Below are positions 8,097-14,888 of a stretch of 64,000 bases of DNA, one piece after another. The DNA lies in the IMG/VR virus record IMGVR_UViG_3300042377_000625, positions 1 through 64,000 of that record, one strand, 5' to 3'. Numbering within the stretch: the stretch's first letter is position 1; each line of letters opens with the position of its first letter. Origin of the DNA: a virus. The notes below the pieces were generated by a model, which worked only from the letters and a program-made list of their open reading frames with translations, did not search any database and was not told where the DNA came from. The translations under genes were made by a program, and so were the position numbers.

Positions 8097-8127
8097 AAAA
8101 CCCCCTTTTCAGGGGGTTTTGTTTTTT
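8095..8127. terminator. Bidirectional terminator
   Basis: AAAACCCCC and GGGGGTTTT pair around TTTTCA, with A tracts on the left and T tracts on the right. It can end both the + strand unit and the - strand lipoprotein gene, whose stop is at 8126. Confidence 0.85.
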
Positions 8128-8308
8128 ACTTAACAGATTGAACTGAAGTGGTGTCTACTAAAGTAGAGTCTACACTGATTTTAGTTGAGTCTGTGGCTAC
8201 AGATGTACTGTCTGCCGTTGTTAGAGTTTCCTCAGTTTGAGTTGATTGTCCACAAGATACCATCATCATTGTTCCTGTAACCAACATAGCGAAAATTACT
8301 TTTTTCAT
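8126..8308 (-). CDS. Small Bacteroidota-type lipoprotein
   Basis: 60 residues. A basic start (MKK), a hydrophobic core (VIFAMLVTGTMMM) and a lipobox VSC-G place the lipidated cysteine at residue 19. The mature part is 41 residues, nearly all Thr, Ser, Asp, Val and Glu, without aromatic residues. It would be lipidated by the host and anchored in the inner or outer membrane. Phage lipoproteins of this size (for example Llp of T5) can block the receptor against superinfection. That role is an analogy only. Two TATTTAT motifs lie upstream on the same strand. Confidence 0.75.
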   Translation of the reverse strand: MKKVIFAMLVTGTMMMVSCGQSTQTEETLTTADSTSVATDSTKISVDSTLVDTTSVQSVK

Positions 8309-8338: not shown

Positions 8339-8429
8339 GGTGATTGTTGACGTAAAATCAACTTATACTTTAAAATAATTCAGATTTTCTTAACAAAGTA
8401 CAATATTTATATAAAAAATAAAAAAATAT

Positions 8430-8462
8430 ACTGTTTAGGTATTGTCAGAACAGTTTTTTTTA
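8430..8462 (+). terminator. Possible terminator upstream of the RNA locus
   Basis: ACTGTT and AACAGT can pair around 13 nt, followed by eight T. It would shield the promoters downstream from readthrough. The loop is rather large. Confidence 0.45.
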
Positions 8463-8471
8463 TTATCTTTG
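8442..8471 (+). promoter_or_regulatory. P1: host-type promoter upstream of the large RNA
   Basis: TTG 8442-8444, 19 nt, TATCTTTG 8464-8471. It lies about 210 nt upstream of P3, and any transcript would run through P2 and P3. Confidence 0.6.
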
Positions 8472-8550
8472 TAAAACAATTCGGGGTTAGGTTGACAATC
8501 TGTTATAAAATCGTGGTTTCCTAAGACTGAAAAAAAAAACAAAAAAAAGA

Positions 8551-8582
8551 TTTGGTAAATCGAAAAACTTTACCTACCTTTG
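8551..8582 (+). promoter_or_regulatory. P2: strong host-type promoter with inverted repeat
   Basis: TTTG 8551-8554, 20 nt, TACCTTTG 8575-8582. The spacer is bounded by GGTAAA (8554-8559) and TTTACC (8569-8574), an inverted repeat with a 9-nt centre. The surrounding segment is nearly identical to P3. Confidence 0.8.
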
Positions 8583-8601
8583 TACAACAAAAGAGATAGA
8601 C

Positions 8602-8616
8602 AACGATTCAGATACA
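8602..8616 (+). other. 15-mer shared exactly with the small RNA at 31295-31407
   Basis: AACGATTCAGATACA lies between P2 and P3, in the loop of a possible AGAGAT/ATCTCT hairpin. The same 15-mer occurs in sense orientation in the small RNA encoded on the - strand at 31381-31395. Confidence 0.7.
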
Positions 8617-8643
8617 AATCTCTAAAAAAAATAAAAAAAGATT

Positions 8644-8675
8644 TGGTAAATCAAAAAAGTTTACCTACCTTTGTA
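8644..8675 (+). promoter_or_regulatory. P3: strong host-type promoter of the large RNA
   Basis: TTTG 8644-8647, 20 nt, TACCTTTG 8668-8675. It has the same inverted repeat as P2 (GGTAAA 8647-8652, TTTACC 8662-8667). The predicted RNA start is near 8681. Confidence 0.85.
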
Positions 8676-8699
8676 AAACAAATCGGAAACGTCCGAAGA

Positions 8700-8714
8700 A
8701 GTTCTTTGACATAT
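8700..8714 (+). promoter_or_regulatory. boxA-like antitermination element in the large RNA leader
   Basis: AGTTCTTTGACATAT begins about 20 nt after the predicted transcript start. The core resembles boxA (CTCTTTAACA in E. coli; GTTCTTTGA in Firmicutes rRNA leaders), the NusB/NusE site of rRNA operons. The tmRNA leader carries AGTTCTTTAACATAT. Confidence 0.6.
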
Positions 8715-9977
8715 TATTATCCATTATAACACTTCGGTGTTGTATAAACGATAATCGGCCGTATATGGTCGTTAAATAAACCTCGAAAGGGGGATAAAGT
8801 GAAATCATAAGTGTTAATGGTTTTGCGGTTCGGGTAACCGAACTCGAGTATACAAGTGGGATATCAGTGAGCCTGTAGTACCGAGGATAACTTCGTAGGG
8901 AAATGGAAAACTGAACGGGCAATGTGGATTGTCAGTTTGAGGTGGGAACACCAATAAGAATAACCCATAGGAATCAAGTGAGAAGTGTACTCCAAATACA
9001 CAATTGCGGGTTCCAATATAAGAGGTGACTTAAAACCGAAGGGATTAACCTGAAGGTAAGATAGAGAACGAATGGTGTCGCTACTATCCTTACCACAGAC
9101 CCACCAAGGTCTTGGTACGAAGTAATCTTAAAATATGAGAGTGGGGACACTCTACCGAGTAGACAAGTATCTTGTTGTTCAAAAGATAACGAGGCTTAAG
9201 ACGGACCTCTACTTGGAATCATCCACAACACAAAACTTATACTAAATTTAAGTAAAACTAAAAGACATATAAGCAAAAGTGTTCGTCAGGTTTTGATGAA
9301 AGTCGCCTACATAGTCATGAGTTGTTCATGGCATACTGAGACCGCAAGTCGATGTATATTGTTACCAAAAACCTCCAAGGAGTCGAATCCTGAGTCAGTT
9401 CGCAAGATTGAAGAGAGTAGAGTAGTAATAGAGTAGTTAAAACCTTAAGGAGTGATTGGTCTAACCAATCGGCGATGAGAGTTACCATTCAAAAGATGGT
9501 GGAAATGAAGGGAACCAAATAATCCTTCTAAAGATTCTCACAAAACGGTGTATTCTCAGCCTTTAGCCAACCAAAACTATGAAAACAGTGACTCCAATAC
9601 AGAGAAAAGAGGTAATTACGGTATATTCCTCAAGGTAATGAGTTTAAACTTTCCCTTAAAAAAGTCCCATAGAGTGTGTGTTTTTGGTTTTATACTATGT
9701 TACAACCTTTATCTGCTCTGATTGATAAATACAAAAAACTAGTGTGTTTGTGTCAAGACAAGACATCTTCGCTAAAAGATAAAAAACGTCAACACCGATA
9801 TTCTTAGGTTGTGGATTTTTGTGATAACCACAGGTTTTTTATAGGTGTCTAAATAAGTAAAAAACCAAAAAACATAGACGTTTAGGTCGCGGATATTCAC
9901 CTCACGATAGAAGGTCCCATTCGGTGTCACAAACTGATGGAGTGGTTAAGGTTGTACCACTGAGTAAAAAGCCCAAC

Positions 9978-10010
9978 GGGAATAACATGACGATGTTATT
10001 CCCTTTTTTT
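9978..10010 (+). terminator. Terminator of the large RNA
   Basis: An 11-bp perfect stem (GGGAATAACAT / ATGTTATTCCC) closes a GACG loop and is followed by seven T. It is one of the strongest terminators in the window. Confidence 0.93.
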
Positions 10011-10060
10011 ATGCACTAAAATATAATAATCATACAACACTAATCTATAATTTTAACGCA

Positions 10061-10088
10061 TAAAAAAACCCCATCCGAAGATGAGGTT
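10061..10088 (-). terminator. Terminator of the tmRNA gene
   Basis: On the - strand, AACCTCATC and GATGGGGTT pair around a TTCG tetraloop, followed by seven T, directly downstream of the tmRNA 3' end. Confidence 0.88.
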
Positions 10089-10095
10089 TAATGAG

Positions 10096-10481
10096 TGGAG
10101 GTAGAGGGGTTCGAACCCTCGTGTTGTACACCTTACCTATTAAGGACTACACGCTTAGGATAACATTTTCTAATGTTCCAAAAATAGTTAGTTCGTTCTT
10201 CACCATCGTAAACTAACAACCAATGGATGACTCGATTTTGGGTTCAGTCATTTTTCCACCTTTGTATAGACTTCTGTTCCTAGGTTGTATGTCCACCGAC
10301 CCGTATGGTGTTTCCTATATGTTAGGCAACAACCGCAGCTTCTTCACGGATTAATCCGATGGTCGCCATTTTGTCTAAAACGTTTCCGTTTACAGTTTAC
10401 ATCCGTAGATTTAAGTGATAGGATACATCTCACTGCGTGCCCCGAATAACTAACAATGCCAGTCAATTCCAAGTTACCCCC
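10096..10481 (-). ncRNA. ssrA: Phage-encoded tmRNA
   Basis: About 386 nt. The acceptor stem GGGGGUA / UACCUCC has a G-U as its third pair, the alanyl-tRNA synthetase identity element of tmRNA, followed by discriminator A. The T-arm is perfect: GAGGG-TTCGAAC-CCCTC at 10104-10120. CCA is not encoded. The internal frame ends GCG ACC ATC GGA ... GTT GTT GCC TAA (10322-10366 on the - strand), giving a tag ATIGLIREEAAVVA if it resumes at GCG, or GLIREEAAVVA from GGA (host Bacteroidota tags usually begin with Gly). The usual ending ALAA is replaced by AVVA. It would rescue stalled ribosomes and tag the nascent chain. It has its own promoter, boxA-like leader and terminator. Confidence 0.92.
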
Positions 10482-10496
10482 ATATGTTAAAGAACT
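10482..10496 (-). promoter_or_regulatory. boxA-like element in the tmRNA leader
   Basis: On the - strand AGTTCTTTAACATAT directly precedes the mature 5' end of the tmRNA. It differs at one base from the element in the large RNA leader at 8700-8714. Confidence 0.6.
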
Positions 10497-10507
10497 TATT
10501 TCTTTTA

Positions 10508-10538
10508 CAAAGATAGTAAAGTTTTACCAATTACCAAA
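10508..10538 (-). promoter_or_regulatory. Host-type promoter of the tmRNA
   Basis: On the - strand: TTTG (10535-10538), 19 nt, TATCTTTG (10508-10515). A related inverted repeat, GGTAAT-N9-TTTACT, occupies the same place as in P2 and P3. RNA would start near 10501, giving a leader of about 20 nt to be removed by processing. Confidence 0.85.
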
Positions 10539-10546
10539 CTATTTTA

Positions 10547-10553
10547 TATTTAT
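10547..10553 (+). promoter_or_regulatory. TATTTAT late-type promoter
   Basis: Part of TATATTTAT (10545-10553), 16 nt before the GTG start at 10570 and back to back with the tmRNA promoter. Confidence 0.5.
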
Positions 10554-10569
10554 ATGTAAATAAATATTT

Positions 10570-12834: not shown

Positions 12835-12858
12835 AAAAAAGGGGGTTATTCAACCCCT
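12835..12858 (-). terminator. Terminator overlapping the clpC-like stop codon
   Basis: On the - strand GGGGTT and AACCCC pair, with the TGA stop of the Clp gene in the loop region, and six or more T follow. Confidence 0.75.
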
Positions 12859-14888
12859 TTTCTTTTTCTTGTGACTTTCTTTTCCTCTTTAAACTTAACA
12901 TCACCATTTTCACTTATTAACGTGTACTCAGTATTCTCTTGAATGTTACTCTTAAGAACCTCTTCAGATATAAAATCTTCAACTTTATCCTGAATAGCTC
13001 TTTTCAATGGACGAGCACCATACATTTCATCAAACCCAACCTCAGAAATCATATCTAAAATAGAATCGTCAAATTTAATATTATATTTAAGACCTGTCAA
13101 TCTTTCAGATAAAATACTCAACTCAAGCTTAACAATTTTTTTAACATCTTCTTTCACTAGTGAATTAAAAATAATAACCTCATCAATACGGTTTAAAAAT
13201 TCAGGGGCGAAAAACTTCTTAAGTTCCTTCTTCAAAACTTCTCTTTTTTGTTCTTCTTCAACGTAAGAACTCGAGTTAGTTTTAAATCCTACACCCGCAC
13301 CAAACTCCTGTAGTTTTTTAACTCCAACGTTTGATGTCATGATAATGACACAGTTTTTGAAGTTAATTTTTCTTCCCATACCATCTGTAAGGTGACCGTC
13401 ATCCAACACTTGTAATAATGTTGAAAATATGTCTTTGTTTGCCTTTTCAATCTCATCAAATAAAATTACTGAGTAAGGTTTGTTTTTAACTTGTTCAGTT
13501 AATTGACCACCTTCGTCATAACCTACATATCCTGGAGGGGCTCCAATTAATCTTGAGATACTATGTTTTTCTTGGTATTCAGACATGTCCACACGAATCA
13601 TATTCTCCTCACTACCAAACATTTGTTTTGCCAATTGTTTTGCTAAGTAAGTTTTACCTACACCTGTTGAACCAAGGAAAATAAATGAACCAATTGGTTT
13701 ATTAGGGTCTTTAATACCTAATCTGTTTCGTCTGATTGACTTAGCAATTTTCATAACCGCTTCAGATTGGCCAATTACTTTGTCAGATAAACTACCCTCT
13801 AATTGAGATAGTAACATCGTCTCATTAGCATTCAATTTACTAATAGGAATTTTAGTCATGTTTGAAACGACCTCATAAACCAATTCGATAGAAACTTCTT
13901 TTTTCTTAATCTGAAGTTCCTCCTCAAATTTTTTCTTCTCAATATCTAATTTATTGAGAATACGTTTTTCCTTGTCACGTAGATTTGCCGCCTCTTCGTA
14001 ATTTTGTTTTTTAACAACCTCAAGTTTTTCAATTTTAACGTCGGCAGCTTCTTGTTTTAATTTTTCAATAATGTCAGGCATTTTAATCTCAACTTGACAT
14101 CTCGCACCTACCTCATCAATAATGTCGAATGCCTTATCAGGAAACTCTCTGTCGGTGATATATCTTGCCGCCAAATCAACACATACTGAAAGTATTTCAT
14201 CAGTATAAGATACCTTGTGGAATGATTCGTATTTATCTTTAACATTCTTAAGAATCTCCAAAGTCTCTTCTTTAGTCGCCGCGTCAACAATTACCTTTTG
14301 AAAACGTCTTTCTAATGCTCCGTCTTTCTCAAAGTTCTTACGATACTCATCAAGAGTTGTTGCACCAACACATTGAATTTCTCCACGGGCAAGTGCTGGT
14401 TTGAAGATGTTTGATGCGTCTAACGAACCTGATGAATTACCTGCACCAACTATTGTGTGAATTTCGTCAATAAAGACAATGATATTTGGTGCGTTTTGTA
14501 ACTCCTCGATAATTACTTTCATACGTTCCTCAAACTGACCACGGTATTTTGTACCCGCAACAATCGATGTCATGTCTAACGAAACAATTCTTTTATCCAT
14601 TAAATTTCTTGGACATTCACCGTTAAAAATTTTAATTGCTAATCCTTCTACGATTGCGGTTTTACCACAACCAGGTTCACCAATAATAATAGGGTTATTT
14701 TTCTTTCTACGAGAAAGGATTTGAGCAATCCTTGTAATTTCTCTTTCTCTACCAACAACAGGGTCTAATTTACCTTGTTCGGCCAATTTGATTAAATCTC
14801 GGCTGAAGTTATCCAACACAGGTGTTGATGAGTCAGATGTTGATTTAGGTGGGTTATTCTTTCCCCCATTATCCATGGATTCTATCAT
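12846..14888 (-). CDS. clpC: ClpC-like AAA+ protein unfoldase
   Basis: 680 residues with two AAA+ modules. D1 has Walker A GEPGCGKT (70-77) and Walker B VFIDEIH (138-144). A UVR-like segment (EVVKKQNYEEAANLRDKEK, about 290-310) marks a short middle domain. D2 has Walker A GSTGVGKT near 405, an LFDEIEKA Walker B and a C-terminal domain. A VGF motif (GAGVGFKT, near 530) corresponds to the loop by which ClpC docks on ClpP, so it should work with a peptidase, presumably host ClpP. The usual N-terminal adaptor/substrate domain is absent, and the protein begins about 30 residues before D1. Substrate choice must therefore differ from host ClpC. Confidence 0.9.
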   Translation of the reverse strand: MIESMDNGGKNNPPKSTSDSSTPVLDNFSRDLIKLAEQGKLDPVVGREREITRIAQILSRRKKNNPIIIGEPGCGKTAIVEGLAIKIFNGECPRNLMDKRIVSLDMTSIVAGTKYRGQFEERMKVIIEELQNAPNIIVFIDEIHTIVGAGNSSGSLDASNIFKPALARGEIQCVGATTLDEYRKNFEKDGALERRFQKVIVDAATKEETLEILKNVKDKYESFHKVSYTDEILSVCVDLAARYITDREFPDKAFDIIDEVGARCQVEIKMPDIIEKLKQEAADVKIEKLEVVKKQNYEEAANLRDKEKRILNKLDIEKKKFEEELQIKKKEVSIELVYEVVSNMTKIPISKLNANETMLLSQLEGSLSDKVIGQSEAVMKIAKSIRRNRLGIKDPNKPIGSFIFLGSTGVGKTYLAKQLAKQMFGSEENMIRVDMSEYQEKHSISRLIGAPPGYVGYDEGGQLTEQVKNKPYSVILFDEIEKANKDIFSTLLQVLDDGHLTDGMGRKINFKNCVIIMTSNVGVKKLQEFGAGVGFKTNSSSYVEEEQKREVLKKELKKFFAPEFLNRIDEVIIFNSLVKEDVKKIVKLELSILSERLTGLKYNIKFDDSILDMISEVGFDEMYGARPLKRAIQDKVEDFISEEVLKSNIQENTEYTLISENGDVKFKEEKKVTRKRKGVE

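Follow-up and report, generated by a model that had tools for sequence, protein, structure and literature searches.

The locus

The window (the whole 64,000-nucleotide stretch of DNA analysed here) belongs to a virus record of 92,343 bases that carries genes for a T4-like terminase and a gp23-like capsid protein. The terminase is 27-28% identical to those of the Flavobacterium 'immuto' phages and of one metagenomic huge phage, and we therefore regard the window phage as a member of an uncultured lineage; its TAnnTTTG promoters and the form of its boxA point to Bacteroidota hosts. Several IMG/VR contigs hold identical copies of the locus, whose features are as follows.

8464-8471, plus strand: −7 element of promoter P1, TATCTTTG, from the sequence by TAnnTTTG scan
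8575-8582, plus strand: −7 element of promoter P2, TACCTTTG, from the sequence by TAnnTTTG scan
8666-8673, plus strand: −7 element of promoter P3, TACCTTTG, by TAnnTTTG scan; boxA follows about 30 nt later, as it does in most relatives
8683-8696, plus strand: boxB-like hairpin, TCGGA-AACG-TCCGA; stem pairing kept across leaders, with differing stem letters
8701-8711, plus strand: boxA, GTTCTTTGACA; strict motif, conserved in relatives
8744-9154, plus strand: GOLLD 5′ domain, outside the Rfam model; collinear with full-length relatives from about 8744 onward, with compensatory pairs
9155-9562, plus strand: GOLLD 3′ domain, RF02032; 326.8 bits, E=7.3e-93, model positions 1-416 of 416
9586-9977, plus strand: tail RNA, no Rfam family; nhmmer family, cmsearch 59.3 bits at 9894-9965
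9809-9833, plus strand: tail hairpin A, TTGTGG-(AUUUUUGUGAUAA)-CCACAG; present in 11 of the 12 lineages, with partial conservation of the loop
9899-9915, plus strand: tail hairpin B, ACCT-(CACGAUAGA)-AGGT; both partners differ among lineages in 3 of 4 pairs
9917-9940, plus strand: tail hairpin C, CCAUUCGGU-(GUCACAA)-ACUGAUGG; both partners differ among lineages in 5 of 7 pairs
9941-9961, plus strand: tail hairpin D, AGUGG-(11 nt)-CCACU; both partners differ among lineages in 2 of 4 pairs
9978-10010, plus strand: intrinsic terminator of the unit, 11-bp stem and T7
10093-10481, minus strand: phage tmRNA, convergent; RF00023, 65.9 bits
10483-10495, minus strand: boxA of the tmRNA, GTTCTTTAACATA; same arrangement in L054, L058, L082, L085 and L067

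Between 8096 and 10570 the plus strand has no ORF of at least 60 aa, the sole minus-strand ORF of that size inside the unit (8665-8922, 85 aa) looks like chance, and the longest stop-free run in any frame of 9565-10010 is 57 codons. Hence the original prediction of a large structured phage RNA under rRNA-like control, with no protein frame, tandem host-type promoters, an rRNA-style leader, a strong terminator and a tmRNA beside it, was right in each of these respects; its length of 1.33 kb agrees when counted from a start near 8680, and a UUCG loop, also noted there, is found by inspection in one hairpin (8728-8741). What had been described as a single RNA mixed together three things, namely a leader, the body formed by GOLLD, and another RNA downstream; the description overlooked that the last ~430 nt form a second conserved structured RNA and that relatives share the leader. 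A 60-aa ORF on the minus strand (8126-8308), a short way upstream of the promoters, by inspection encodes a small lipoprotein-like peptide (MKKVIFAMLVTGTMMMVSCG...).

The tmRNA, which lies downstream on the opposite strand, has its own promoter as well as its own boxA, and close copies of it lie beside GOLLD in several relatives. ARAGORN, run on the window, did not detect it. Its tag, read by inspection, would be GNVLDKMATIGLIREEAAVVA, like the ARAGORN tags in L085, L111 and L052. The phage genome also holds a gene for a ClpB/ClpA-type AAA+ ATPase (12846-14888, minus strand).

The body is a full-length GOLLD RNA

The body of the unit is a full-length GOLLD RNA of about 820 nt (8744-9564) that contains both domains. 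The 3′ domain, which has a short linker at about 9212-9275 and no tRNA inside, covers the whole RF02032 model at more than twice the gathering threshold of 150 bits. The two-part organization of GOLLD, in which a structured 5′ region precedes the conserved 3′ region over about 800 nt or more, is present at 8744-9564, as is the characteristic location in a phage or prophage near tRNA-type genes, given the T4-like genes, the virus record and the adjacent tmRNA. The suggestion that this might be a new family, to be checked by cmscan and abandoned upon a good match to a known one, was therefore wrong for the main body, and its novelty ends by that same standard.

A GOLLD motif scan of viral contigs, which used neither the leader nor the tail, returned at least 120 stretches, and at least 125 loci (huge-phage and own-record loci included) can be aligned with the body; 61 of these are non-redundant among the matches listed. 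The homology extends from about 8744 to 9559-9571 in most relatives. From an alignment of 38 relatives, RNAalifold derived 187 pairs in both domains, and 125 of these show at least one compensatory double change. Two Flavobacteriaceae matches of the motif in bacterial genomes were not GOLLD by cmsearch and were used solely as entry points to host genomes.

A conserved rRNA-like leader precedes GOLLD

The leader is rRNA-like, comprising three promoters, a boxB-like hairpin and a boxA. The promoters were recognized by TAnnTTTG, which we take to be the Bacteroidota −7 consensus, and P2 and P3 sit in a 59-nt duplication (8533-8591 and 8624-8682, 91.5% identical). As expected of an rRNA-type leader, boxA (GTTCTTTGA) follows soon after a promoter with the hairpin just upstream of it, and most relatives share this module: a TAnnTTTG promoter, a spacer of ~26-28 nt containing a hairpin, and then GTTCTTTGAAA. 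Of the 61 non-redundant relatives (among the matches listed), 49 have a strict boxA no more than 130 nt ahead of the body, compared with 7 occurrences elsewhere in the same loci (1.08 Mb, both strands), a density ~950 times higher before GOLLD. When G or A is allowed at the eighth base there are 19 sites elsewhere, 6 of which by inspection precede tmRNA and 4 tRNA genes. Some homologues have no strict boxA, and several of those have the variant GTTCTTTGAAT. The hairpin stem reaches at least 5 bp in 41 of 46 leaders, versus a mean of 2.1 and a maximum of 6 in shuffled sequences, and its letters vary widely (TCGGA/TCCGA, TCAGGA/TCCTGA, ATTAGG/CCTAAT, CTTGGT/ACCAAG).

The same class of motif is found in the likely hosts. 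Upstream of Bacteroidota 16S genes, GTTC[AT]TT[GA]A is present in 23 of 36 distinct regions, several of the remainder being truncated contigs; the boxA form in the Flavobacteriaceae sample is GTTCATTGA, and GTTCTTTGA is present in the phylum-wide sample. A hairpin precedes the host 16S boxA in 16 of the 23, which is not clearly above the chance expectation of 10.8 (maximum 17), and we make no claim for a host boxB hairpin. In four loci (L018, L033, L092 and L011), boxA followed by TATTGG lies directly before phage tRNA genes, as in host 16S leaders. The GOLLD RNAs of Acinetobacter, Mycobacterium and Streptococcus phages have no boxA in the stretches examined, which indicates that control of the rRNA type belongs to these phages and not to GOLLD in general.

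A second structured RNA lies downstream of GOLLD

Past 9564, the window can be aligned with sequence that follows GOLLD in other phages, and positions 9586-10009 (~430 nt) are apparently an undescribed structured RNA in tandem with GOLLD, which we call the tail. A profile search places it in 12 lineages (the window, L085, L084, L051, L035, L264, L100, L016, L082, L004, L020 and L067), with a size of ~370-450 nt; the main lineages are 49-61% identical to each other. Hairpins B-D are paired in 76.2% of cells (64.7% after shuffling), and their covariation score of 0.409 exceeds the shuffled value of 0.217 (sd 0.029; the score is attained in none of 500 shuffles), as well as the maximum of 0.218 obtained with slid partners. 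The alignment behind this score was fitted to the structure, and an unfitted MAFFT alignment gives 0.414. Because the shuffles ignore the relatedness of the sequences, this support is strong but not final. The loop of hairpin C, UCAC(U/A), is kept in 12 of 12 lineages on stems of differing sequence, and the start of the tail, AGUGA, is complementary to the loop C sequence UCACU over 5-6 bp. This could be a long-range pairing, to which covariation lends no support because both sides are conserved. By eye, a terminator pseudoknot (GGCUA/UAGCC, or GGUUA/UAACC in L085) is seen in several relatives and is not obvious in the window.

Scans for tail patterns alone, with GOLLD not used, gave confirmed matches that have GOLLD 18-94 nt upstream wherever the locus reaches far enough; where an insertion is present the distance is 641 nt, and the L263 contig breaks off within the 3′ end of GOLLD. 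The pattern matches in L261 and L266 look like coding DNA, having neither GOLLD nor the tail profile, and weak cmsearch matches in L006, L048, L103 and L118 (E 0.5-0.9) were discarded as chance. Searches of Rfam 15 with window positions 8400-10560 and with the L051 and L004 tails, at E up to 1, found no tail family near the cut-off, where GOLLD, tRNA and tmRNA were the only families, all elsewhere than in the tail; blastn of INPHARED with the window tail matched no record. The body is of a known kind, and the leader and tail RNA are the new part, neither having been found in Rfam 15 or in the papers searched, an open-access subset that may miss earlier descriptions.

Gene order and linked tRNAs

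Gene order was compared in 54 non-redundant loci (among the matches listed) with at least 450 nt of downstream sequence. GOLLD stands alone in 34, and the others read GOLLD-tRNA-tail (9), tRNA-GOLLD (6), GOLLD-tRNA (3) and GOLLD-tail (2, the window and L058, with a gap of 18-22 nt). The tail is therefore not needed for GOLLD, being present in 11 loci, 9 of which have a tRNA between the two RNAs. The window phage has lost this tRNA(CAU), which is found between GOLLD and tail in most tail relatives. L082 and its copies have an additional insertion there; in L082, where approximately 640 nt separate the GOLLD end from the tail, an open frame that by eye resembles a GIY-YIG homing endonuclease lies between GOLLD and the tRNA and tail.

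The GOLLD-linked tRNAs have the loop CTCATAA. Bacterial initiator tRNAs typically have C1:A72, and 12 of the 21 linked tRNAs lack a 1:72 pair and have A73, 4 of them with C1:A72; the remainder fit A1:U72 (L086-type genes) or are unclear in register. On this basis the linked tRNA(CAU) is likely, though not settled, to be initiator-like. Upstream of the body, the linked tRNAs of L123, L078, L113 and L066 have C1:A72, and three of them have anticodon stems of the initiator type, GGG/CCC.

A probable operon for stable phage RNAs, organized like an rRNA operon

Taken together, we consider it very probable that this locus is a phage stable-RNA operon that is built like an rRNA operon and contains GOLLD and a second RNA. 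Host RNA polymerase would start at the tandem, strong host-type promoters, and the nascent leader would expose the boxB-like hairpin and boxA, onto which host NusB/S10 and other Nus factors are predicted to load. Nus-dependent antitermination could then keep the 1.3 kb untranslated RNA from being cut off by Rho. By analogy with the published env-38 RNA, the GOLLD portion should fold as the known two-domain subunit and may join 13 other copies in a nanocage, and the same transcript would bear the second structured RNA. Where the initiator-like tRNA lies between GOLLD and tail, as in most tail relatives, cleavage by RNase P and maturation of the tRNA 3′ end would probably release both RNAs; in the window, where the tRNA is lost, GOLLD and tail may stay joined.

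This last point bears on the alternative that the tail, instead of being a separate RNA, is an optional third domain that remains covalently attached to GOLLD, for example as cargo or as a handle of the cage. The obligate tandem position would be explained by it, and in the window and L058 nothing stands between the two RNAs; set against this, maturation of the intervening tRNA would cut GOLLD and tail apart in nine of the eleven tail loci, and L082 and its copies are interrupted further. We regard a third domain as possible but rather unlikely. A second alternative concerns the leader, which could serve mainly as a decoy that draws host Nus factors off the rRNA operons and not as an antiterminator of the unit. 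That its motif is of the same class as those of host 16S leaders, and that some loci (such as L084, L047 and L100) repeat the promoters and have additional copies of boxA upstream, fit such a role; nonetheless, there is usually one leader-body unit in which the promoter spacing is fixed, and tmRNA and tRNA genes are preceded by boxA copies of their own, which suggests action in cis and makes a decoy improbable. Also improbable is an ordinary GOLLD with an unconstrained 3′ trailer past 9564 and a leader that resembles those of rRNA by chance: most relatives do end soon after GOLLD, but tail lineages that are 50-60% identical retain a common set of hairpins by changing both partners of a pair, and the concentration of boxA before GOLLD is far too great. 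That the unit is a giant phage RNA belonging to a new family, as its length and structure had seemed to indicate, is practically untenable given the match over the full RF02032 model, and survives only for 9586-10009.

If the operon reading is correct, the conserved rRNA-type leader implies that the phage needs its GOLLD cages to be transcribed like rRNA, and the obligate second RNA and the initiator-like tRNA in the same unit become the first candidate partners of the cage. We know of no established function for GOLLD cages. Because a tmRNA, an initiator-like tRNA and an rRNA-type leader surround GOLLD, we lean towards the view that it helps to handle components of translation late in infection, and the candidate partners likewise point to translation or ribosome handling. 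One can also imagine, quite tentatively, that the tail is a new structured RNA family existing only as the operon partner of GOLLD, that the pair and the initiator-like tRNA come from an imitation rRNA operon, and that the tail is cargo, lid or assembly partner of the nanocage.

Comparison with known systems

ROOL and OLE resemble GOLLD as giant, ornate RNAs that form homo-oligomers, and ROOL is likewise a nanocage of phages and prophages; neither has a match within the window. The phage leader resembles the boxB-boxA, nut-like leaders of rRNA operons in having a hairpin and then boxA close behind a promoter, and it shares the core GTTCWTTGA with Bacteroidota 16S leaders. It differs in that it drives a phage RNA and in that the binding of Nus factors is here a prediction. 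An independent case is phage DSS3_MAL1 (MN602268, L277), in which a leader with the hairpin ggaacctcggttcc and then the boxA CTCTTTGACA precedes tRNAs, GOLLD and tmRNA in one array; in contrast to the window, its boxA has that different sequence, its tmRNA is on the same strand, and the sequence leading up to the GOLLD 3′ end contains a tRNA-Arg.

The closest comparison is with GOLLD env-38, for which the available passages of the cryo-EM paper (PMC12286853) describe a 14-mer cage, a length of 833 nt and a 5′ domain of 420 nt; the same passages report that GOLLD of other members is induced at lysis and pulls down with ribosomes. The words 'boxA' and 'antitermination' are absent from the paper's text, and these passages mention neither such a leader nor a second RNA. 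The window RNA, at ~820 nt, is like env-38 in its complete 3′ domain, its structured 5′ domain of ~410 nt, its short linker, its phage location and the tRNA-type genes nearby. Relative to env-38 as those passages present it, the window adds two features: a conserved leader of the rRNA type and, downstream of GOLLD, a second structured RNA.
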